From positions 1 through 49,405 of the IMG/VR virus record IMGVR_UViG_3300049459_000181: a stretch of DNA of 49,405 bases; one strand, written 5' to 3'. Below, in pieces: positions 26,619 through 49,040 of this stretch (position 1 is its first letter; each line of letters begins with the position of its first letter). This stretch comes from a virus. The notes under the pieces were generated by a model that saw only the letters and a program-made list of their open reading frames with translations, was not told where the DNA came from and ran no database searches. Position numbers and translations under genes: made by a program.

Positions 26619-29600
26619 CTAGTAGGCGTAGGCGATCGAGTCGAACATGGCGACGCCGTCCCACGTCGTGGGGTCCGTCGTCCCGGCGGGCAGCGGCTCG
26701 CAGATGACGTCATTGGCCGTGTGCGCCTTGGTCGTCGGCGCGGTGAGTGTGATCGCGGCCGTCGTCCAGCCGGGGCTCGTCGCGCCGACCGACAGCACGG
26801 TGACCGTCTCGGCGTTGGCGGTGCCCTGCCCGAGGGTGAGTTGTTGTCCGGGTGCCAGTTGCGCGGCGAGCGGATTGACGTTGTCGGCCGGCGCCTTGAT
26901 GGTGATCGCGGAGACGCCCGCCGACACCGTCGTGTTCAGCTTGGTGTGCCAGGCGGCGAAGGTGCCGTAGGGGGTGAGGTCGGCCGGCGAACACTGGAGA
27001 GTCAGCCACGCCTCGGCGGCGTCGTCGAACTCCCACGAAATGTTCTCGACGAAGCACTCGACCTGTACGGGCGGGGCCCCGGGCGGCCGGCGCATCACCC
27101 GCACCCGGGTACCGAGGTCGAGGGAGAGACAGACCGGCCACAAGGCGGGGTTGGCGCTGGGGTGCAGCTTCAAGGAGCTGACCCGCTGGGCCGGCTGCCG
27201 GTACCGGGACAGCAGGTAGTCCGCGGCGTCCTGGCACTCGGCGGTGTTGCTCGCGTTGATGGTGCGCGACATGGTCCGCGGGAAGTACGCGGTGACCGAG
27301 GCGGCGTCGACGGCGGGAAAGTTTTGCTGCGTGCCTTCCTGCTGCACGGTGACCTGGTTCGACAGGTGCGTCGAGTCGTAGTCGAGGGTGACTTCCTCGT
27401 ACGGCCATTCACCGAGGTCGACGCGCTCCCCGAACGTGTAGGCGGGGCTGAGCGCGTTGTAGCGGGCGCTGCGTGAGCGGAACTGGATCGCGCCGGCCGT
27501 GTCGACGAAGTGGGCGCCGTTCTCCGTCTCGACGACCGCTTGCAGAGCGCTCATGGCGTCCTGCCCGGAGATGTTGGCGGGGCCCATCGACGTCGTCAGT
27601 CCGGGCTGGAGGTTGGAGACACCGTTGTACTTCGCATAGCGGAGGATCCGCCCGTAGCGGGCATCACTCGACTCGCCGGCACACGCCGACTTCCACGCCT
27701 GGTAGATGTTCTGCATGGCCGTCGATGACAGCGCCGAGGGGAACTCGGCGATGAAGGACATGTTGCCCTTGTAGTTGTAGGTGGTGCCGTTGCCTACGGT
27801 CGGGTCCACCCACGCACCGATGTTGTCGGAGACCAGGTCGGACGGCTCGAGGGAGGGGTCGAAGCTGCCGTAGAACGTCGCCCCGCCATCCACGCTGATG
27901 ATCAGCTGGGCGTTCGCGCGGCTGTAACTGGCGATGACGAGGTGCCAGTCGCCGTCCAGCATGCTGGTGTTGCTGGGCTGGAAACTCACGCCGGCCGACG
28001 TCGTGGGGCCGCCCATGACCAGGTGCAGGAGGCCGGCGGTGTCGATTTGCCAATACATCATGGAGCCGGACGGGTTGCCGTTGGTGCGGCTCCGGGAGAA
28101 CGCCGACCACGGCACCGTCATGACGGTCGGGGTCGGCCCGGTGTAGCGGAACGCGAACATGCGCGTCCACTGGCTGAGGTCTGCCGGGCCGACGATGCCG
28201 GCCGACGACAGTTTGAGGAACGATGCGCCGCCGGAGGTCAGGCCGGTGCCGGGGTTGCTGTTGCTGATCGTGGCGACGGTGTCCGTGCTGCCGGTGTAGA
28301 TACCGGTGGTCGCGTCGTTGGCCGTGATGGCGGCACCGAAGGTGATGGTGCCGGCGCCGTACTTGCCGACCCCGATCTGCACCGGCGCGTTGTTGCCCGC
28401 CCAGTCCGTCACCGACGTCGACCCGGCGGGGTCGTCGAGCTTGTAGACGAACCGTGGCGCGTTGGCGTTCAGCTCCATGGTGAGCGCGTCATCGAGCTGC
28501 TGCTGGCTCAGCAGGGAGAACGTGTCGACCATGGTGGGCTCGACAATCCCGTACAGGCCCTCCATGTCCCACGACGCCGGCCAGCGCTCCGTCCAGCCGG
28601 CGTACACGTTCGACCACACGCCCGGGCATGCCCAGGCGGAGGCGACCGCGCCCTTCTCCAACTGCCAGCCGTCGACCTGGAGGGACGCTGTAGCCGCGGC
28701 GGTGGAGGCGAGGGCAACGCCGACGTCGATGCCGGCTGCGTTCGCCGGCGCGGTGGCGGTCACGGTGAACGTCGTCCACCCGGCGGTCGTCGACCCGGTC
28801 AGGGTGCTGCTCGTGCCGTAGTTGAAGCTGGTCGGGGTGCTCGTCCCGACGGTGTACCAGCCGATGAAAGCCTGCACGCTCAGCGTCGTCGACGCCGTGA
28901 CGTCGCGGACGCGGAGCTGCACCGTGTACGTCTGCCCCGGGAGGACGGACCAGCGGGGTGTGTGGCAGGGCCGTGCACCGGCCGCGGAGCCGGACGGCAC
29001 CGAGAACTGCATGACGGTGCCGCCGGCCCAGGCCGACGGGGAGGAGACGAAGGAGCCGCCGGTGGCGTCCGTCGTGGAGAAGATACTCGGGCCGTTCGGT
29101 CCCGTCGGTATCCCGCCGAGTGCGTAGCCGCCGAGGTCGCCGCCGGTCGCCGTGACCTGGTCCAGGACGTTCCTGGTGGCCGGCCACTGCGCGCGCCGCC
29201 GGTAGGGCTGGTACGGGGTGATGTGGCCGGCCCACGGGCCGAGCGCGTTGACGGGGTCGAGGACGGCGCCGGTGTTGGCGAGACGCAGCGACACCTCACC
29301 GGATCGAACCTGGTCGGTCTCGTACTGCCGGCCCCGCTGCGCGGTCATGGTGCCGCGGGTCCAGTCGGACACCTCCACGTACCGGTCGATGGGGAAGGTA
29401 CCTGCGTTGGCGTTCCAAAACGGTGCCCAGCCGTCCTCGACGCGGGGCCAGTTGGGGTTGTACGGGCCGCCGGCGCGCGTGTTCACGTGGGAGATGGTGG
29501 ACACGCTGCCGGCGACCTCAGTCGCGGCTGCCTGCGACTCGAACCGCAGGGTGATGTTCGTGGCGTCCCAGGTGTAGGCCATGGACGCCTGCTGTGCCCA

Positions 29601-30047
29601 CGTGAGGCCGTCCGGGGAGGTGTCGGCGTAGAAGGACCCGCCGGCCTCCCGGAGCCGCCAGAATCGGTGCTGGTGCGGGTCGTAGGCCGGCAGCGTGGTG
29701 GAGGTGAGGGAACCACCGATCTGCATGGTCATCTTGAAGACGCCGGACTCGACGCGCATGGTGACGGCGTTGGTGGAGTCGAACCGCACCCGCATGATCG
29801 TTTTGGTGTTGCCGGCGCCGTTAGCCGTGACACCGACCTGCGCGTACACGGACGAACCGGTGGCGTCGTACAGGTTGTTCGTGCCGAACGTGTTGATGCC
29901 GCCCGACGCGGTCGGCACGGCCAGGACCACCTCGTCGTTGACGGCGTCCAGGGTCGCCGCACCGGCCGTGACGTTGTTCCACAGCGACGTGTCGATCGCT
30001 GGCGCGGTGAACGCATCGGCCAGGGTGGACAGCTTGGGGTTGGCCAC
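26619..30047 (-). CDS. Large minor tail protein with LamG-like domain
   Basis: A 1142-residue protein from GTG 30047, directly after the tape measure. The N-terminal 230 residues are beta-rich (carbohydrate-binding-like). A central part (about 240-320) resembles distal-tail/hub sequences (W-T-R-G-T-M-T-A-Q-R-G-R). About 535-790 reads as a LamG/concanavalin-type sandwich (L-N-A-N-A-P-R-F-V-Y-K-L-D-D-P). The C-terminus (about 830-1060) has a tail-hub-like pattern. One gene appears to combine distal tail, hub and adhesin roles usually split over two or three. Confidence 0.7.
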   Translation of the reverse strand: MANPKLSTLADAFTAPAIDTSLWNNVTAGAATLDAVNDEVVLAVPTASGGINTFGTNNLYDATGSSVYAQVGVTANGAGNTKTIMRVRFDSTNAVTMRVESGVFKMTMQIGGSLTSTTLPAYDPHQHRFWRLREAGGSFYADTSPDGLTWAQQASMAYTWDATNITLRFESQAAATEVAGSVSTISHVNTRAGGPYNPNWPRVEDGWAPFWNANAGTFPIDRYVEVSDWTRGTMTAQRGRQYETDQVRSGEVSLRLANTGAVLDPVNALGPWAGHITPYQPYRRRAQWPATRNVLDQVTATGGDLGGYALGGIPTGPNGPSIFSTTDATGGSFVSSPSAWAGGTVMQFSVPSGSAAGARPCHTPRWSVLPGQTYTVQLRVRDVTASTTLSVQAFIGWYTVGTSTPTSFNYGTSSTLTGSTTAGWTTFTVTATAPANAAGIDVGVALASTAAATASLQVDGWQLEKGAVASAWACPGVWSNVYAGWTERWPASWDMEGLYGIVEPTMVDTFSLLSQQQLDDALTMELNANAPRFVYKLDDPAGSTSVTDWAGNNAPVQIGVGKYGAGTITFGAAITANDATTGIYTGSTDTVATISNSNPGTGLTSGGASFLKLSSAGIVGPADLSQWTRMFAFRYTGPTPTVMTVPWSAFSRSRTNGNPSGSMMYWQIDTAGLLHLVMGGPTTSAGVSFQPSNTSMLDGDWHLVIASYSRANAQLIISVDGGATFYGSFDPSLEPSDLVSDNIGAWVDPTVGNGTTYNYKGNMSFIAEFPSALSSTAMQNIYQAWKSACAGESSDARYGRILRYAKYNGVSNLQPGLTTSMGPANISGQDAMSALQAVVETENGAHFVDTAGAIQFRSRSARYNALSPAYTFGERVDLGEWPYEEVTLDYDSTHLSNQVTVQQEGTQQNFPAVDAASVTAYFPRTMSRTINASNTAECQDAADYLLSRYRQPAQRVSSLKLHPSANPALWPVCLSLDLGTRVRVMRRPPGAPPVQVECFVENISWEFDDAAEAWLTLQCSPADLTPYGTFAAWHTKLNTTVSAGVSAITIKAPADNVNPLAAQLAPGQQLTLGQGTANAETVTVLSVGATSPGWTTAAITLTAPTTKAHTANDVICEPLPAGTTDPTTWDGVAMFDSIAYAY

Positions 30048-41549: not shown

Positions 41550-41923
41550 CAGCTACTCCGGGGGGAGATGCGGCGCGCCGAACCCTGCGGGGACCAGCCG
41601 GTGACGCGCCCGGATTTGTAGAGCTGCCAGGCGTGTTCGTCGAGGATCGCCCCGACGAGCCAATCGCCCGACTTGACGACGACGTCGCCGAGGTCCCAGT
41701 CCGGGCCGCGGTAGATGTAGCTCTCGACGACCGTGGCCGCCCCCGTCGTGCCGTCGGCGTGGAAGAGGCCCACCTCGGCGCCGTTGGGGAGGTATCCCCA
41801 CGCCGCTTTCTCCAGCTCCTCGGCGCTGAAGTAGTCGCGGCCGCCGTCCGCGCCCCGCTTGATCATGGGGTCGGGGCCGGCCTGGTAGGCGACGCCGAGC
41901 ACGTAGCGCTGTTCGTCGGGCAT
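41549..41923 (-). CDS. XkdF-like prohead protease
   Basis: A 124-residue protein from ATG 41923, sharing one base with the portal stop (TGATG). The motif S-G-D-W-L-V-G-A-I-L-D-E-H-A-W-Q-L-Y-K-S, followed by G-R-V-T-G-W-S-P-Q-G, is the signature of XkdF-type serine proteases. These mature the prohead by removing scaffold. It is short because the normal C-terminal extension seems to be encoded by the next gene. Confidence 0.75.
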   Translation of the reverse strand: MPDEQRYVLGVAYQAGPDPMIKRGADGGRDYFSAEELEKAAWGYLPNGAEVGLFHADGTTGAATVVESYIYRGPDWDLGDVVVKSGDWLVGAILDEHAWQLYKSGRVTGWSPQGSARRISPRSS

Positions 41924-44900
41924 CAGGCTCCTCCTGTCACGGGTACGAGGGCGCAGCGGCACCAGGGGTGTCCGGGCGGCGAGGTGTGCCCGGAGGGGAA
42001 GGTGTCGCCGGGGCGACGGGGGCCGGCGTCTTGGTTGGTCTGGCAGATCGGGCAGACGCGGCCGTCGCCCGCGCTGTCCCACTCGATGCGCTCGATGCCG
42101 TTCGCCAGGTAGGTGCCGAGGCTGGCCTGGGACACGGCCCGGCACAGCTCGGTCGTGGCGATCATCTCGGCGCGGGTGCTGTCGCTGAGGAGGCCCTCAA
42201 TCGCCGCGGCGATGGTGGTGGGGCTGTCGCCGCGCTCGGCGCCTTCGGCCAGCAGCCGGCCCAGGGCGTTCAGGCGGGTGCTGGCGATGGAGCGGATGGT
42301 CACCCCGCTCTCGTTCAGCAGGCTGTCCAGGCCCGCTCCGTCGCCCTTGGGGCCGAGGAGGAGGCGGGCTGCTTGCGCGTCGCCCGGTTCCCACCCGGCC
42401 CAGTCGATGCCGGCCGCGACCGCGCCGCTGGCTTCAGCGACGGCGGCCTCGGCGGCTACGACACCGATGACGTAGCCGTCGGTGTAGACACCGGCGATGG
42501 TGTCCTCCAGTGCAGCAGCCAGTTCGGGGGCGTGCTGCTCCAGCCACTGGCGGGCCTGTGCGTTGAGTTCACGCAGCCGGTCGGCCTTCCGCCCGTCGGT
42601 GGGCTGTGCGGCCGCGGACAGCCACGCCTTGGCCAGCTGGCGGGGGTTGAGGGCGCCGCGGAGGGCGGCGGCTATCCGGGGTGCCCAGTGACGGACGGCC
42701 TTGAGGTCCATCCGCCATCCGAGCCACCGTTCGGCCGCGCCTTCTTCAGCGCCCTCACCTTTTGGGTGGGCCGCCTTGATGAGGTGCTGCATCTTCTCGG
42801 TGACGGACTCGCCGTCGGTGTGACCGTGGGAGCCGTCGGTGTGCTGCCACCCGTCGAGTTCGTCGTACTGGACGGGCATGCCGCACGGGCATACGCCGTC
42901 GTCGTCGGCGATCGGGGCGCCGAACGCCTCGAGGACGATGTCGAGGTCAGCCCGGAGTTCGGGGCGGACGACGGTGTTACCGCGTAGCTGCTCGGGGTCC
43001 CACCATGCGACGGCTTCGACCTGGTCGCCGTCGGGGTCGTCGGGGTTGTTCACCTGGTCGCGTCGGGTGAGGTCGAGGACGCTCTCCGAGCCGACGGTGT
43101 AGACGTAGCCGGCGTAGATGCCGGACACCCACGCCGGGTCGGCGGACGCCAACTCGGCCATGCCGTCGGGGTCGAACGGGAGGATGAAGCGGGTTTCCTC
43201 GCACCACTCGCGGACGGCGCCGGCCACCGGGCGCTCGTTGCCCTCGAGGTGGCCGCCGGGGAACTCCCACGTGCCGCCGGCCGGGTCGTCCGGGTGGAGG
43301 GCGCGCTGGAGCATGAGGACGCGGCCGGTGTCGGCGGCGCGGACGACGAGACCGGCGCATGCGATCTCGCCGGAGTCCTTGCGTATCTGTGCGCGCCCGT
43401 GCTGGTTGAGGCGGCGGCCGGCGCGCGGGTCGACGTGCCGGAACTCGAAGTCCCGCCAGGCGCCGGAGCGGCGGCGGGCCTTACGGAAGGACCGGAAGGC
43501 GGCCATCTCGCGCTTGACGAGCTCCTGGTCTGGCTCGTTGTCGCCGTCGTCGAGGTCGTAGCCGTGCAGTCCGGTGTCGCTGGTGATGCCCTCGGCGGCC
43601 GCGGGTGCGGCCTCCTTGGCGAGCTGCGCGGTGTCGTGCACGGCGGACTGGTAGGTGTCCTCAGCGGCCGATGCCGCGGCCGCTTCCGTGGTGCCCTGCG
43701 CGGGGAGGACCCCGGGCGCGGGGACGAACGGCTGCGTGGGCAGGGCCTGGTCTTCGGCCGGCGCGTACGTCTCCGGGTCGACGTGACCGCCGACGCCGTC
43801 GATGTTGAGCAGGGGGACCGGGCCGAGGCGGCTGGTGTTGAAGAAGCGGGGAGTCGGCCGGCGCGGGTCTGCGGGCAGGCCCAGCAGCTCCTCGCGGCCC
43901 TCGTCGGGGCTGGCCATGCCGGACTCGATGTAAATCTGCCACGCCTGGGCGAGGGTGAGGCGGTCTTCCTTCTCCTGCCCGGTGTCGAAGCTGAATTCCA
44001 GCGGCAGGCCGAGGTCGTGCTGGAGGAACGAGGTCAGGACGCCCTCGATGTGGCCGACCAGGGGCAGGTCACCGACGCGGTGCTGCACGTCGGCCTGCGT
44101 CTCACCGGACGACCGGTTGACGCTCTCGGTGAAGCCCATGTCGGACGGGACGATGTGGAAGGACGCGCACGTCTTCCGCATCAAGAACAGGGAGAAGGAG
44201 TCGGAGAAGTCCTTCTCGTTGGACCAGACGATGCTGCCGCCGCCGGGCATCCACTTGATCTGGTGCTTGACCGACTGGTCGCCGAGCATGAAGGCGTCCC
44301 AGTAGCCCTGGAACTCCTCGATCTGCTGCGGTGTCCACGACTCCGGCGCGCTGGCGAACGCTTCGGGGATGTTGCCCTCGGTGAACCGCTGGAGGAAGTA
44401 CGCCTGGAACCGGAGATCGGTGTTGGCGTTGAGCAAGATGCTCTCGAGCGGCGCGTATCCGTAGGGGCTGTTCGCCCGCGGCCGGAACGGGGTGTACACC
44501 AGGTCGTTGCGGGTGAGCCAGTTCCACGGCAGGCCGTTGGCGTACTGGACATACGCCTCGGCGGGCGCCTCGGGGCTGTTGCCCCAGTAGTCCAGGAGCG
44601 GCGCGATCGTGGTGCCGTCGACGACCCGCAGGCCGATGACGCGGCCGCCGCGGTTCCGCAGCCGGTACAGGGTGCCGGCGTCGTACGCGAGGATGTCGTA
44701 CAGCCAGGTCGCCAGCCAGGTGGAGAACGAGTTCTGCCGGTCGGGCTTGGCCAGCACCTGCATGCCGATGTCGATGGCCTCGTCGGCGTCGCCGCGGAAG
44801 CCACGGGCAGGGACGAGGGCCCAGTCCAGGGCGCGGATGGAGTCGATCCGGTGCCAGATGCACATCTGCGCCACGTCGTAGGAGTCGACCAGGCCGCGCA

Positions 44901-45126
44901 GGGTCTCGAAGGAGACCCGCTCGTTCGCCTTGGGCCGGGCGTTGATGTTGTACCCGGTGACGAAGTCGTGGGTGCGGGGGGTGCGGCTGTAGCCGTCGTA
45001 CGGGCCGATGGGCTGGCCCGGGGAAAACGGCCGGGTCTGGGTCATCCCGGCGGTTTCTTCGGCTGCCTGCATGGCGGCCGGCGGGCGGGCACCGAACGCC
45101 TTGACGAAACGGTCGCGGAGGCTCAT
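41923..45126 (-). CDS. Portal-Nudix-MuF fusion protein
   Basis: A 1067-residue protein from ATG 45126 (AGGAGG 11 bases upstream). Residues about 1-440 are portal (K-A-N-E-R-V-S-F-E-T-L-R, S-P-Y-G-Y-A-P-L-E-S-I, L-F-L-M-R-K-T). About 585-740 is a Nudix domain with a complete box, Gly625 to Glu644 (G-x5-E-x7-R-E-x-x-E-E). About 860-1063 is MuF-like, ending C-P-I-C-Q ... F-P-S-G-H-T-S-P-P-G-H-P-W-C-R-C. Portal-MuF fusions are known. A catalytically intact-looking nucleotide or ADP-ribose hydrolase between them is unusual and would be present in about twelve copies in the virion. Confidence 0.88.
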   Translation of the reverse strand: MSLRDRFVKAFGARPPAAMQAAEETAGMTQTRPFSPGQPIGPYDGYSRTPRTHDFVTGYNINARPKANERVSFETLRGLVDSYDVAQMCIWHRIDSIRALDWALVPARGFRGDADEAIDIGMQVLAKPDRQNSFSTWLATWLYDILAYDAGTLYRLRNRGGRVIGLRVVDGTTIAPLLDYWGNSPEAPAEAYVQYANGLPWNWLTRNDLVYTPFRPRANSPYGYAPLESILLNANTDLRFQAYFLQRFTEGNIPEAFASAPESWTPQQIEEFQGYWDAFMLGDQSVKHQIKWMPGGGSIVWSNEKDFSDSFSLFLMRKTCASFHIVPSDMGFTESVNRSSGETQADVQHRVGDLPLVGHIEGVLTSFLQHDLGLPLEFSFDTGQEKEDRLTLAQAWQIYIESGMASPDEGREELLGLPADPRRPTPRFFNTSRLGPVPLLNIDGVGGHVDPETYAPAEDQALPTQPFVPAPGVLPAQGTTEAAAASAAEDTYQSAVHDTAQLAKEAAPAAAEGITSDTGLHGYDLDDGDNEPDQELVKREMAAFRSFRKARRRSGAWRDFEFRHVDPRAGRRLNQHGRAQIRKDSGEIACAGLVVRAADTGRVLMLQRALHPDDPAGGTWEFPGGHLEGNERPVAGAVREWCEETRFILPFDPDGMAELASADPAWVSGIYAGYVYTVGSESVLDLTRRDQVNNPDDPDGDQVEAVAWWDPEQLRGNTVVRPELRADLDIVLEAFGAPIADDDGVCPCGMPVQYDELDGWQHTDGSHGHTDGESVTEKMQHLIKAAHPKGEGAEEGAAERWLGWRMDLKAVRHWAPRIAAALRGALNPRQLAKAWLSAAAQPTDGRKADRLRELNAQARQWLEQHAPELAAALEDTIAGVYTDGYVIGVVAAEAAVAEASGAVAAGIDWAGWEPGDAQAARLLLGPKGDGAGLDSLLNESGVTIRSIASTRLNALGRLLAEGAERGDSPTTIAAAIEGLLSDSTRAEMIATTELCRAVSQASLGTYLANGIERIEWDSAGDGRVCPICQTNQDAGPRRPGDTFPSGHTSPPGHPWCRCALVPVTGGA

Positions 45127-45159: not shown

Positions 45160-45564
45160 TCAGGCGCCGGTGATCCAGTGGTCGGGCAGCTGGAGGGCCG
45201 CCGGGGTCTTGTCCAGCGGCTCGGGCGTCGGGGTTCCCGGGGTGCAGTCGCAGCCGGGCAGGTTGGCCATGTCCGGGGCCGTGCACGTGCTCTCGTGGAT
45301 GAGGGCGGCCCGGTCGAGGGAGATGGCGTGCTGGGCGCACGCGTAGACGCTGCGGGTCATGCCGTCGCTGGTCGGTAGCGGCCCGAATTCGGGCGGCCCC
45401 AGGAGCGGGTCGGCCAGGAGCGTGAGCGTCGCGCGGCGTTCCTCCTCGGTCGCTACGAGGTGGGCGACCTCCGCCTCGGTGGGGCGGCGCTGCCAGTTCA
45501 CGACCGCGCCATCGCCGCATGCCGCGCAGAAAGGCCCCGCGGACAGGGGGGTTGGGGTGGCCAC
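45160..45564 (-). CDS. Hypothetical protein with Cys knuckles
   Basis: A 134-residue protein from GTG 45564 with AGGAGA upstream. An N-terminal F-C-A-A-C-G, a central Y-A-C-A-Q-H and a later C-D-C suggest a zinc site. Proteins of this type often precede the portal in Streptomyces phages. Function unknown. Confidence 0.6.
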   Translation of the reverse strand: MATPTPLSAGPFCAACGDGAVVNWQRRPTEAEVAHLVATEEERRATLTLLADPLLGPPEFGPLPTSDGMTRSVYACAQHAISLDRAALIHESTCTAPDMANLPGCDCTPGTPTPEPLDKTPAALQLPDHWITGA

Positions 45565-45580: not shown

Positions 45581-45901
45581 TCAGGTGACGACGAGTTGCC
45601 CGACGGGTATGACGGGTTGTTCCGGGTTGTCGGTGATGCGGAGCCACACGGCGTACCGGCCAGGCGTGAGGGTCGGGCCGCTGCTGGCGGGCCCGACGAG
45701 GACTTGCGCCCTGTACGCGTTGGTGCCGGGTATCGGCTCGATGCCGTCCCAGCCGCCCGTGTACCAGGTGGCGGGTCGGCCGCCGACGGCCGCGAAGGCG
45801 AACTCCACGGGGTCGTCGGTGGGGTTGAAGGGCTGGCCGGCGACGGTGACGTCCACGTGGGCCTGCACGTACTGCCGGGAGTCGCGGTCGATGCTCTGCA
45901 C
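45581..45901 (-). CDS. Ig-like structural protein
   Basis: A 106-residue protein. GTG 45901 has GGGGAG upstream; the frame is open further upstream but only as an overlap of the repeat-protein gene. The pattern Y-V-Q-A-H-V-D-V-T-V-A-G-Q-P-F-N-P ... A-Y-R-A-Q-V-L-V ... P-G-R-Y-A-V-W-L-R-I is an Ig-like beta sandwich, common in phage adhesion or decoration proteins. It lies between the repeat protein and the portal region. Confidence 0.6.
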   Translation of the reverse strand: MQSIDRDSRQYVQAHVDVTVAGQPFNPTDDPVEFAFAAVGGRPATWYTGGWDGIEPIPGTNAYRAQVLVGPASSGPTLTPGRYAVWLRITDNPEQPVIPVGQLVVT

Positions 45902-45915
45902 CCGGGTCTCCCCTG

Positions 45916-48375
45916 CTATTCGTCGGTGTTCCAGCGGCTGCCGGTGAGCCAGGCCCGCCAGGTGGCGCCGGGCTGGCCGGCCGTCCAGCGGGTGACGGTC
46001 CCGGCGGCCGTCACGATGAGGTCGCGCACCGCGCGAGTGACATGTGCGCTCGTTGCCGCCGCGGTGGCGGCGGCCGCCGCGAGGAGGAGAACGAAGACGC
46101 GGGCGGTACTCATGGACGCCGCCCCGTGCGCCGTGGCGGTCGTGGGCCGGCTGATGTTCCGGCGGAGCAGTGCGGTGGTGAGGGCGTTTGCGTGGGCGTT
46201 CAGCGCCGCCCCGCGGACCAGGGCCGCGGTCGTGGTGGCGGTCGCCGTGTGACGCAGCGCAGCCGCCCGCAGCATCGCTACCGTCGGCGATGCTGCGGTG
46301 GCGAGGACGCGGTTTACCGCGGACTGGATCGCCGGGTGCGCGGACGCTGCGGCGGTGAACGGGCGTGCCAGCGCGCGGCGGACAGCGGCGGTGCCGGCCG
46401 CGGCGCCCGACACGGTCAGTGCGGGCCATCGGATGATGTCGCCCTCGGCGGCCGCGGTCCCCCTGGTGGTCATGCTGGCGCCGCGGGTGATGCCGGTGGT
46501 GCCGGTGCCCGCTGCGGGCAGTGTGGTGCGGGCGCCGCGGCCGAGGGCCCCGGCGGTGTGCACGCCGACGGTCAGGGTGAGGAGGGTGGTTCGGGTCCAG
46601 GTGAGCGCCCGGGCAGCGGTCGCGGTGGCCCCTAGAACGAGCTGTCGCGCCGCCTGGCGGGCCGTGGTGGCGGTTCCGGTAACTGCGGTCACCTGGGGGC
46701 GTTCCAGGCCCCTACGGAGCGAGCCAGCGGCCCCCAGGCTCGTTGGGAGGCTGGCGCCTACCGTGCGGGTCAGGGTGCCGGTGCTCGAGGCCGTCCCGGT
46801 GTGGGTGCGGCTGAGGGCCCGGCGGATGCTGCCGGCCGCGGACGCGGTGGCCGCGAGCGTGGCGGACAGGGCCCGGCCGATGGTCAGTGCGGCGCCAACC
46901 GTGCTTGTCACGGCGAGGATGAGCACGCGAAGCGTGCCGGTTGTATGTGCCGCGGTGGCGGTGGCCGCCGCGGTGAGGCGCCTGCCGATCGCTCGCATCG
47001 TCGTGGCGGACGCGGTCGCCGTCGCCGTGTAGGTACGGGCGAGCGTCGCCCGGACGGTTGCGGCCGTCGTGGAGTTGGCGGCGGTGGCGTACATGCGGGA
47101 TGCGGCCCGGCTGATCGTGCCGGTGGCCGCGGCGGGGACGGTGACGAACGTGCTGGCCGCGCGCCGCAGGGTGCCGGCGGCGGCCGCGGACCCGGTCAGG
47201 GTGCGGCCCACACCGCGCCTCGTTGTCACGGCCCCGGTGCTGGTGACCGTGAGGTTGAGGCCGGGGATGTAGGTGAGGAGCCCGGTGCCGTGCGCGGCCC
47301 GGGCCAGGCCGAGTTGCAGCCCGCGGGTGAGTGCTGCGCCGGCGGCGCGGGCGGTGGGGAAGGCGGCTGCGAGTGCCCGCTGCATGCTGACGCTGCCGGC
47401 GGCCCCGGCGAAAAATGGCCGGCCGGTGTCGCGGCGTAGCGTGCCGGTGCTGGTGGCCGTCGCGGGGACGGGCCGGCCGACGCCGCGGCGTAGCGTGCCG
47501 AGACCTGCGACGCCGGCCACGAACAGGAGCGTCCGCACGGTGGCGGTTGTAACGCTCCGCGCGGCCGTCGCCGTGGCGGCCAGGCGGCTGGCGATGTCGC
47601 GGCCGACTGCGGACGTCGCCGTTGCCGTCGCGCTGCGGGCGACGGAGGCGGCCCGGGTGATGCTCGTGCCGCTGGTCCCGATAGCCGTCTGGATGAGTCC
47701 GGGCCGTCGGCCCAGGCCGGCTGACGAGGCGGCCGTACCGGCGAGGCTGACCGTGCCGGCGGCGCGGACGAGGACGGCGAGGGTGGCGACGTTGCCCGCT
47801 ACGTCCTGCGTCGCGGTCGGTGCGGCCGCCGCGGTGACGGCCGCGTTCCACACCACGCCGTTACCGGCGGCGGTGACGGTGTACGTGAAGCCGCTGGTGG
47901 AGCCAGCCACCACGTTGTTGCTGACGTACGCGTACCCGATGTACAGCTCTTTGCCCGCGCTCGGGGTGAGCGTGGACCAGGTGACTGACGTGGTGGCGGA
48001 GCCGGAGGTGCTGCCGCCCGTACCGTCCGCGGTCCAGGCGGTGTTGGCGAGGTTGGAGGAGAACTGTTCGGCGCACAGTTCCGTCGCCACGCCGGTGATG
48101 TCGGAGTTGAAGGCGACAGTGATCGTCGTCGGTGTCGTCGCCGTGATCGGGCCGAGCCAGATCTCTATCGTGCCGTTGACGACCGTCTGCGCCACCGACG
48201 CGATCCGGGTCCAGGCCGCGGGCCCGCCGCCGGTGACGGAGGAGACGCCGATTGCCTGGTCTGCGACGCGCACGATGAGCAGCCAGGCGTTTCCCACCAC
48301 GGCGCCGGAGACGGTCAGGGTGCTGACGCCGCTACCGCGGTTCTGCTGGAGGCTGCCAACGGCGGAGATCGTCAC
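45916..48375 (-). CDS. Large Ala/Thr/Arg-rich repeat protein
   Basis: An 819-residue protein from GTG 48375 with GGGAGG upstream. Residues 1-205 form a beta-rich domain (T-L-T-V-S-G-A-V-V-G-N-A-W-L-L-I-V-R-V). From about 205 to 770 the sequence is roughly 30 imperfect repeats of about 18 residues, pattern [T/S]-[L/I]-R-R-x-x-x-R-x-x-x-A-T-A-x-x-x-G. It is almost free of Asp/Glu and so very basic. A W-rich end follows (W-R-A-W-L-T-G-S-R-W-N). The 18-residue period could form beta-solenoid coils. The neighbours are structural, so a virion fibre or cell-wall/teichoic-acid binder is inferred. Reading-frame artefact is unlikely because the start, spacing and neighbours fit. Confidence 0.7.
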   Translation of the reverse strand: MTISAVGSLQQNRGSGVSTLTVSGAVVGNAWLLIVRVADQAIGVSSVTGGGPAAWTRIASVAQTVVNGTIEIWLGPITATTPTTITVAFNSDITGVATELCAEQFSSNLANTAWTADGTGGSTSGSATTSVTWSTLTPSAGKELYIGYAYVSNNVVAGSTSGFTYTVTAAGNGVVWNAAVTAAAAPTATQDVAGNVATLAVLVRAAGTVSLAGTAASSAGLGRRPGLIQTAIGTSGTSITRAASVARSATATATSAVGRDIASRLAATATAARSVTTATVRTLLFVAGVAGLGTLRRGVGRPVPATATSTGTLRRDTGRPFFAGAAGSVSMQRALAAAFPTARAAGAALTRGLQLGLARAAHGTGLLTYIPGLNLTVTSTGAVTTRRGVGRTLTGSAAAAGTLRRAASTFVTVPAAATGTISRAASRMYATAANSTTAATVRATLARTYTATATASATTMRAIGRRLTAAATATAAHTTGTLRVLILAVTSTVGAALTIGRALSATLAATASAAGSIRRALSRTHTGTASSTGTLTRTVGASLPTSLGAAGSLRRGLERPQVTAVTGTATTARQAARQLVLGATATAARALTWTRTTLLTLTVGVHTAGALGRGARTTLPAAGTGTTGITRGASMTTRGTAAAEGDIIRWPALTVSGAAAGTAAVRRALARPFTAAASAHPAIQSAVNRVLATAASPTVAMLRAAALRHTATATTTAALVRGAALNAHANALTTALLRRNISRPTTATAHGAASMSTARVFVLLLAAAAATAAATSAHVTRAVRDLIVTAAGTVTRWTAGQPGATWRAWLTGSRWNTDE

Positions 48376-48401
48376 GGGTCACCTCCCGCCGGCGGGGTCG
48401 G

Positions 48402-49040
48402 TCAGGAGAACGACAGCTTCGTGGTGGCCGTCAGGGTGTCGCCGTTGTTGAGGGCGAGGCCGGTGAACGAGGCGTGGACGAGGAGCGATCCGTTCGTCAC
48501 GGCGGTCGAGCCGGGAGCGTTGCCGCCGGTGACCGTCGCGCCGCTGGAGTGGGTCGCGGCGGTGGAGCCGTTGACGCCGCGGGTCACGGTCCACGTGGTG
48601 GTGCCCTGACCGCCGGTCACGGTCATGACCTCGGAGTCGACCTGGATGTTGTAGTTGCCCGAGCCGGGGAAGCCCGCCGCCGAGGTGACGGTGATCGACG
48701 TGGCGCCGGTGGTGGCGATGGCCCCGGACAGTGTGGTCGCCGCGGGCTTGGACGCGGAGTCACTGAGGAACGTCTCGGTGATCGTCTGCGAGCTGGCCGA
48801 GGTGAGCGTCCCGGATACCTGGTAGGTGTCGTTCGTGCTCGTGGTGGTCACCTGGCTGCTGGTGCCGGCGACGCGGGCCTCGGTGGCTTCCTGGAACGGG
48901 GCGACGTCGGTTGCGGCGGCGGTGCCGGCGCCGATGCCCCACCCGAGGTTTTTCGGCTCGACCTGGCTCGGGGTGGCGCCGATGAGCCGGCCGGCCACGA
49001 TCTCGCGGCCCTTGCTGGTGAATGCGACCGTGGTGGCCAT
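48402..49040 (-). CDS. Structural protein with phage beta-module
   Basis: A 212-residue protein from ATG 49040 with AGGAG upstream. The N-terminus (F-T-S-K-G-R-E-I-V-A-G-R-L-I-G) resembles tail-fibre or baseplate bases. The segment T-S-I-T-V-T-S-A-A-G-F-P-G-S-G, then V-D-S-E-V-M-T-V-T-G-G, then W-T-V-T-R-G-V-N is a beta-module shared by many phage structural proteins. Probably a virion fibre or decoration protein. Confidence 0.65.
   Translation of the reverse strand: MATTVAFTSKGREIVAGRLIGATPSQVEPKNLGWGIGAGTAAATDVAPFQEATEARVAGTSSQVTTTSTNDTYQVSGTLTSASSQTITETFLSDSASKPAATTLSGAIATTGATSITVTSAAGFPGSGNYNIQVDSEVMTVTGGQGTTTWTVTRGVNGSTAATHSSGATVTGGNAPGSTAVTNGSLLVHASFTGLALNNGDTLTATTKLSFS

Follow-up and report, generated by a model that had tools for sequence, protein, structure and literature searches.

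A long, repeat-bearing open reading frame on the minus strand of a virus record raises the question whether it encodes a real protein and, if so, what that protein does. The window analysed is the whole 49,405-base record. The features on which the answer rests are all on the minus strand:

41923–45126, minus strand: portal–NUDIX–Mu gpF fusion protein
45160–45564, minus strand: coding sequence of a 134-aa cassette protein, conserved along with the cassette
45581–45901, minus strand: coding sequence of a 106-aa Ig-like protein, a proposed adaptor, starting at GTG with GGGGAG upstream; a syntenic family, joined to the repeat protein in loci L052 and L066
45916–48375, minus strand: coding sequence of the 819-aa repeat-stalk fibre protein (putative), GTG start
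45919–45990, minus strand: C-terminal Trp motif of that protein, residues 796–819 (RWTAGQPGATWRAWLTGSRWNTDE), probable foot
45991–47754, minus strand: repeat stalk, residues 208–795, approximately 30 units of 18 (some 20–22) residues with one conserved Arg each
47755–48375, minus strand: N-terminal head domain, residues 1–207, from the structure model and dN/dS; residues 10–105 are a predicted β-sandwich/jelly-roll
48382–48387, minus strand: Shine-Dalgarno-like GGGAGG of the 819-aa gene, read directly
48402–49040, minus strand: coding sequence of a virion protein of approximately 212 aa that weakly resembles families of tail fibres (phrog_9851 among others); the ATG start was picked to match the relative in locus L007

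The 819-residue frame and its relatives

The frame proposed by a sequence-only reading of this DNA was confirmed, with its GTG start and GGGAGG upstream, and lies in a tight run of minus-strand genes with intergenic gaps of approximately 15–35 bases. Relatives of the protein were found on ten viral contigs, at identities falling from 99% to 41%, and a further search added one at 49%. The complete relatives (41–99% identity) contained no stops and no frameshifts, so the frameshifts that the earlier reading had named as a check were absent. Most relatives were 819–822 aa long; the two exceptions (858 and 880 aa) owed their extra length to pieces of 20 residues and fewer. Indels were almost absent in relatives at 62–78% identity. 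In close relatives, dN/dS was 0.19–0.44 for the head (residues 1–207) versus 0.50–0.91 for the stalk, indicating weak constraint on individual stalk residues, though the register is strict.

The region has a GC content of approximately 76% and carries long spurious frames on both strands, and one pair reached a dN/dS of 0.91, as might be expected if the frame were a by-product of high G+C and repeats with no real protein behind it. This explanation is highly improbable: in a six-frame comparison of the stalk across six pairs, only the 819-aa frame was stop-free in all pairs while each of the other five carried one or more stops in every pair, the N-terminal dN/dS was low, a ribosome-binding site was present, and length was nearly constant across 62–99% identity. 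Judged by these sequence comparisons, the frame is a real, translated gene.

The protein had no match among Pfam, PHROGs and NCBIfam profiles. Against PDB sequences a single insignificant match was obtained (LapA3, E 0.15), and none by profile. Searches of 50,697 phage records with tblastn, using the whole protein, the head or a relative with regular 18-residue units (L077) as queries, returned nothing, a result in which the low-complexity filter probably hides the repeats. The gene had no matches in the genome contig collection, and nothing relevant was found in the literature on the 18-residue repeat or on Streptomyces fibres. An artificial consensus array matched phrog_25143 (E 2e-4), which we judged to be a low-complexity chance hit.

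An 18-residue repeat marked by arginine

The whole protein had been described as about 30 basic repeats of 18 residues. Approximately 30 units were indeed present, confined to residues 208–795; the first 207 residues are non-repeat, residues 796–819 form the Trp motif, and some units extend to about 20–22 residues. Repeat detection recovered the period, with a self-identity of 0.269 at lag 18 (z about 9–10; 9.0 against shuffles, residues 211–800) and harmonics at 36, 54 and 72; the Arg pattern alone gave z 8.8 at lag 18 (residues 211–800). The profile built from nine relatives had the unit consensus T-G-x-[LIV]-R-R-A-x-G-R-x-[LF]-T-A-T-A-T-G, with Arg at one position in 89% of units, Leu, Ile or Val at −2 and Leu or Phe at +6 from this Arg, and Ala or Thr elsewhere. 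Arg was also the most conserved residue type in the stalk (mean 0.83; 26 of 61 invariant). The repeats are rich in Ala, Thr, Arg and Gly, and their basic character and near absence of acidic residues held up (8 acidic residues, 64 Arg and 0 Lys in residues 211–819).

At the DNA level the array has decayed. Tandem Repeats Finder detected only one 37-base piece within the gene, and units were approximately 25% identical to one another. Each unit was closer to its positional counterpart in relatives than to other units, indicating that the array is old and neither expanding nor homogenising. Repeat number, which the sequence-only reading had suggested comparing among related phages, was nearly constant, and rapid change in it was ruled out by the protein lengths given above and by the units staying in place. 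The Arg-marked 18-residue repeat is an undescribed repeat family, within which the row of Arg may have a structural or ligand role.

Structure prediction modelled the head and left the repeats without a confident structure, which is not equal to disorder. The full-length AlphaFold2 model had a pLDDT of 34.7, and in two models the repeats stayed at about 25–40 without a regular fold, even when relatives' repeats, aligned in register, were supplied. Low-confidence helices in the repeats of the full-length model were disregarded, as was a Smac match to residues 382–527 that stems from them. The runs were made on single chains, and the low values for the repeats are compatible with an intertwined trimer as well as with disorder; trimer assembly would explain why monomer prediction failed.

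The β-solenoid inferred earlier from the 18-residue period found no support in these models, which demonstrated neither a solenoid nor disorder. Left-handed β-helix (hexapeptide) solenoids likewise have 18 residues per coil, but self-similarity above z 3 was absent from the repeats at lags 6 and 12, the motif [LIV]-[GAED]-x2-[STAV]-x recurring every six residues was missing from the 18-residue profile, and no solenoid was predicted. The triple β-spiral is the fibrous repeat shaft of the adenovirus fibre and reovirus sigma1. The stalk resembles such shafts in its repeat length range and in some two-residue alternation, but has no strongly conserved Gly/Pro turn (Gly reached at most 34% at any unit position) and carries an Arg in every unit. 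Alternation of large hydrophobic residues scored z 2.2–7.2 in eight proteins with this repeat; the α-helical angle scored z 0.9–4.4 in the same eight, so the β signal is not clean.

A conserved putative foot and adaptor with exchangeable heads and stalks

In the AlphaFold2 model, residues 1–207 formed a separate, all-β, non-repeat domain. The second run, with in-register repeats, improved this head (pLDDT mostly 58–89 per ten-residue block, residues 11–110). Its best match among solved structures was the receptor-binding head of phage Tuc2009 (Foldseek E 4.8e-3), which also ranked first in VIA-align 2 (Z 7.6, 3.7 Å over 97 residues; Z 7.2 with the other model); these scores are moderate: the fold is a frequent one, for which Z values under 8 are common, and the Foldseek E is modest. 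Among the best predicted viral structures was a mycobacteriophage minor tail protein (E 1e-3). The likeness to these minor tail proteins (SkiPole D2XRK1; TM-score 0.52 on the target, 2.6 Å) concerns the predicted head fold, on which alone they were compared; sequence similarity was not detectable by tblastn in the phage collection. A head profile run against the open reading frames of the related loci revealed no further head beyond the close family. The modelled similarity to a receptor-binding head lends support to a role in attachment and is not proof of it.

Tuc2009 BppL (PDB 5e7t, 5e7f), with its adaptor BppU, resembles the 819-aa protein in the predicted fold of the head and in the proposed arrangement of head, stem and separate β-sandwich adaptor. 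It differs in showing no sequence match to the 819-aa protein, in the stalk, which here consists of hundreds of residues of 18-residue repeats, and in gene position, the genes here lying beside terminase and portal. The polarity is also reversed relative to lactococcal receptor-binding proteins, the head being N-terminal in the 819-aa protein.

The Trp motif in the last 24 residues was present in all full-length relatives. For the adjacent 106-aa protein, the label "Ig-like" reflects a pattern in the sequence; the profile of this protein had no meaningful match in PDB or Pfam. The genomic setting was compared across 80 related loci collected through portal-protein alignment, together with four named Streptomyces/Kitasatospora prophages and one from Arthrobacter. 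Prophages of Streptomyces prunicolor NBRC 13075 and S. cylindrosporus are among those with the slot. The closest relatives had the order terminase, fibre-like gene, 819-aa type, 106-aa Ig-like gene, 134-aa gene, portal, and in L007 the terminase large subunit precedes the fibre-like gene. The location among virion genes noticed earlier was thus borne out by fibre-like, portal and terminase neighbours. At many other, more distant loci (Streptomyces-type prophages) the terminase adjoins the portal and the cassette lies upstream of the terminase; the terminase also adjoins the portal in Sonali and Mufasa8, two Arthrobacter isolates whose portal is of this type.

A single chain of 1067 aa (41923–45126, minus strand) combines a portal with a NUDIX hydrolase domain and a Mu gpF-like one; in the Arthrobacter phage Sonali its relative carries the annotation of a portal–MuF-like fusion, and one Mufasa8 record gives the relative there as MutT/NUDIX hydrolase. 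After the tape measure, a 1142-aa protein (26619–30047, minus strand) matched phrog_5313 (E 6e-127). Upstream of the terminase in L007 lies a ParB-like nuclease–DNA methyltransferase fusion (L007:50–1429), with a similar-looking gene in L030 (3257–4819).

In loci with enough upstream sequence, the gene preceding the Ig-like gene usually encoded a tandem-repeat protein with terminal Trp motifs (L033, L036/L107, L077, L042, L106, L053, L038, L068, L090 and others). Repeat lengths in this slot were 16, 18, 20, 22 and 44 residues, and net charge per 100 residues varied between about +12 and −3. The profile of the window family recognised the same 18-residue unit in L077 (z 22) and L036 (z 10.7); stalks built of 20-, 22- or 16-residue units and that of L066 did not score as this type. 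Stalks were near-neutral or slightly negative in L042, L106, L068, L090 and L052. In L052, as in L066, the repeat protein and the Ig-like domain form one chain, although the Ig-like part of L066 was recognised by eye and is absent from the profile matches. L081 and L059 had just a short Trp peptide ahead of the Ig-like gene, which indicates that the stalk is dispensable and that the pairing of Trp foot and Ig-like protein is the constant part.

The recognisable heads varied as well. In L036 the head is a LamG-like domain on its own gene (PF13385, above the cut-off), and heads in L106 and L068 matched virion structural protein families (phrog_2804 and phrog_8510, respectively). A protein encoded upstream of the terminase resembled tail-collar fibres in L044 and L108, and pectin lyases in L054. 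Across the compared loci, phages swap head and stalk types but keep the Trp foot and the Ig-like partner, and positive charge, by the same comparison, belongs to the 18-residue repeat type and not to the slot.

Individual loci showed further features. The LamG-like gene of L036 (749–1978) matches positions 1–383 of phrog_14065 (profile length 1152); the 762-aa repeat protein downstream has no match to this family. In L052:3186–5789, an array of Asp/Arg repeats of 20 residues continues in frame into the Ig-like domain. The 1142-aa slot protein of L038 (1966–5391) repeats with great regularity every 44 residues (z 28), with a unit of another type (RRLVPQQRPYVSDPxLLxTALLExPLLGGADD). A Kitasatospora prophage carries a long tail-collar-fibre-like protein (L044:2016–5777 and L108:3019–6777) where others carry the repeat fibre.

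A probable host-attachment fibre

The product of the 819-aa gene is probably the main subunit of a fibre with which the virion of a Streptomyces phage attaches to its host. It would consist of a carbohydrate-binding-like N-terminal β-sandwich as recognition head, a stalk of 18-residue repeats, and a Trp foot that docks to the 106-aa Ig-like protein and so to the virion. We assign this role to the slot because of its synteny, the swapping of parts and the fusion of repeat protein and Ig-like domain. The protein would accordingly be expected in the virion, at the tail or the neck. In lactococcal phages, receptor-binding proteins form trimers that β-sandwich BppU domains hold in place (PMC3893620), and our model of adaptor and foot is drawn by analogy with these baseplates. 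By this analogy the fibre would be a trimer whose head may bind a cell-surface sugar, whose repeats (residues 208–795) would hold the head at a distance from the particle, and whose Trp foot would bind the Ig-like adaptor, which in turn would join the fibre to the virion.

Several observations speak against a fibre. Conservation among close relatives is higher in the head than in the stalk, unlike in a fast-evolving receptor binder; the genes adjoin head genes and are not placed after the tape measure; the head is N-terminal, the reverse of the lactococcal arrangement; and AlphaFold2 gave the repeats no confident fold. A gene between terminase and portal, with a product that has a net charge of about +9 per 100 residues and Arg as its most conserved residue, could instead encode a polycationic, DNA-associated packaging or ejection factor whose Arg row binds DNA. 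We consider this unlikely, since the stalk is near-neutral or slightly negative in proteins whose ends and neighbour are of the same kind, the cassette is often located upstream of the terminase, and the heads are lectin-like or receptor-binding-like. The same stalks bear on the earlier suggestion of a positively charged fibre that binds teichoic acids or DNA: the fibre is supported by synteny, head similarity and the contents of the slot in relatives, whereas binding through charge is weakened as a general function.

Two tentative readings of the stalk keep the fibre role. The repeats may be intrinsically disordered and act as a flexible, basic tether, not as a folded shaft, with the row of Arg keeping the chain extended or sticking it to anionic wall polymers, as suggested by the low pLDDT, the composition rich in Ala, Thr, Arg and Gly, the stalk dN/dS and the wide variation of the repeat unit among slot proteins. 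A strict 18-residue register with a fixed Arg exceeds what a tether needs, however, and the near absence of indels at 62–78% identity also argues against one, as does the two-residue hydrophobic alternation, though tempered by the helical signal. Alternatively, and just as tentatively, the Arg-marked repeat could be a new fibre-shaft fold, presumably a trimer of intertwined chains in which the row of Arg lies inside or at the surface. Shafts of several unrelated types (16, 18, 20, 22 and 44 residues), this one among them, would then be exchanged by Streptomyces-type phages in one slot, between a head that can be swapped and a joint of Trp foot and Ig-like adaptor that stays constant.

The class of function proposed here, a host-attachment fibre, is ordinary; the organisation with an exchangeable stalk is unusual. 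To our knowledge, the proteins by which Streptomyces phages attach to their hosts have been poorly described. A fixed slot that allows separate exchange of head and stalk, next to a constant Trp foot and Ig-like partner, would provide a rule for spotting receptor-binding fibres in actinobacterial prophages that works where sequence families fail, and it makes the question of whether the stalk is a rigid shaft or a basic tether testable.
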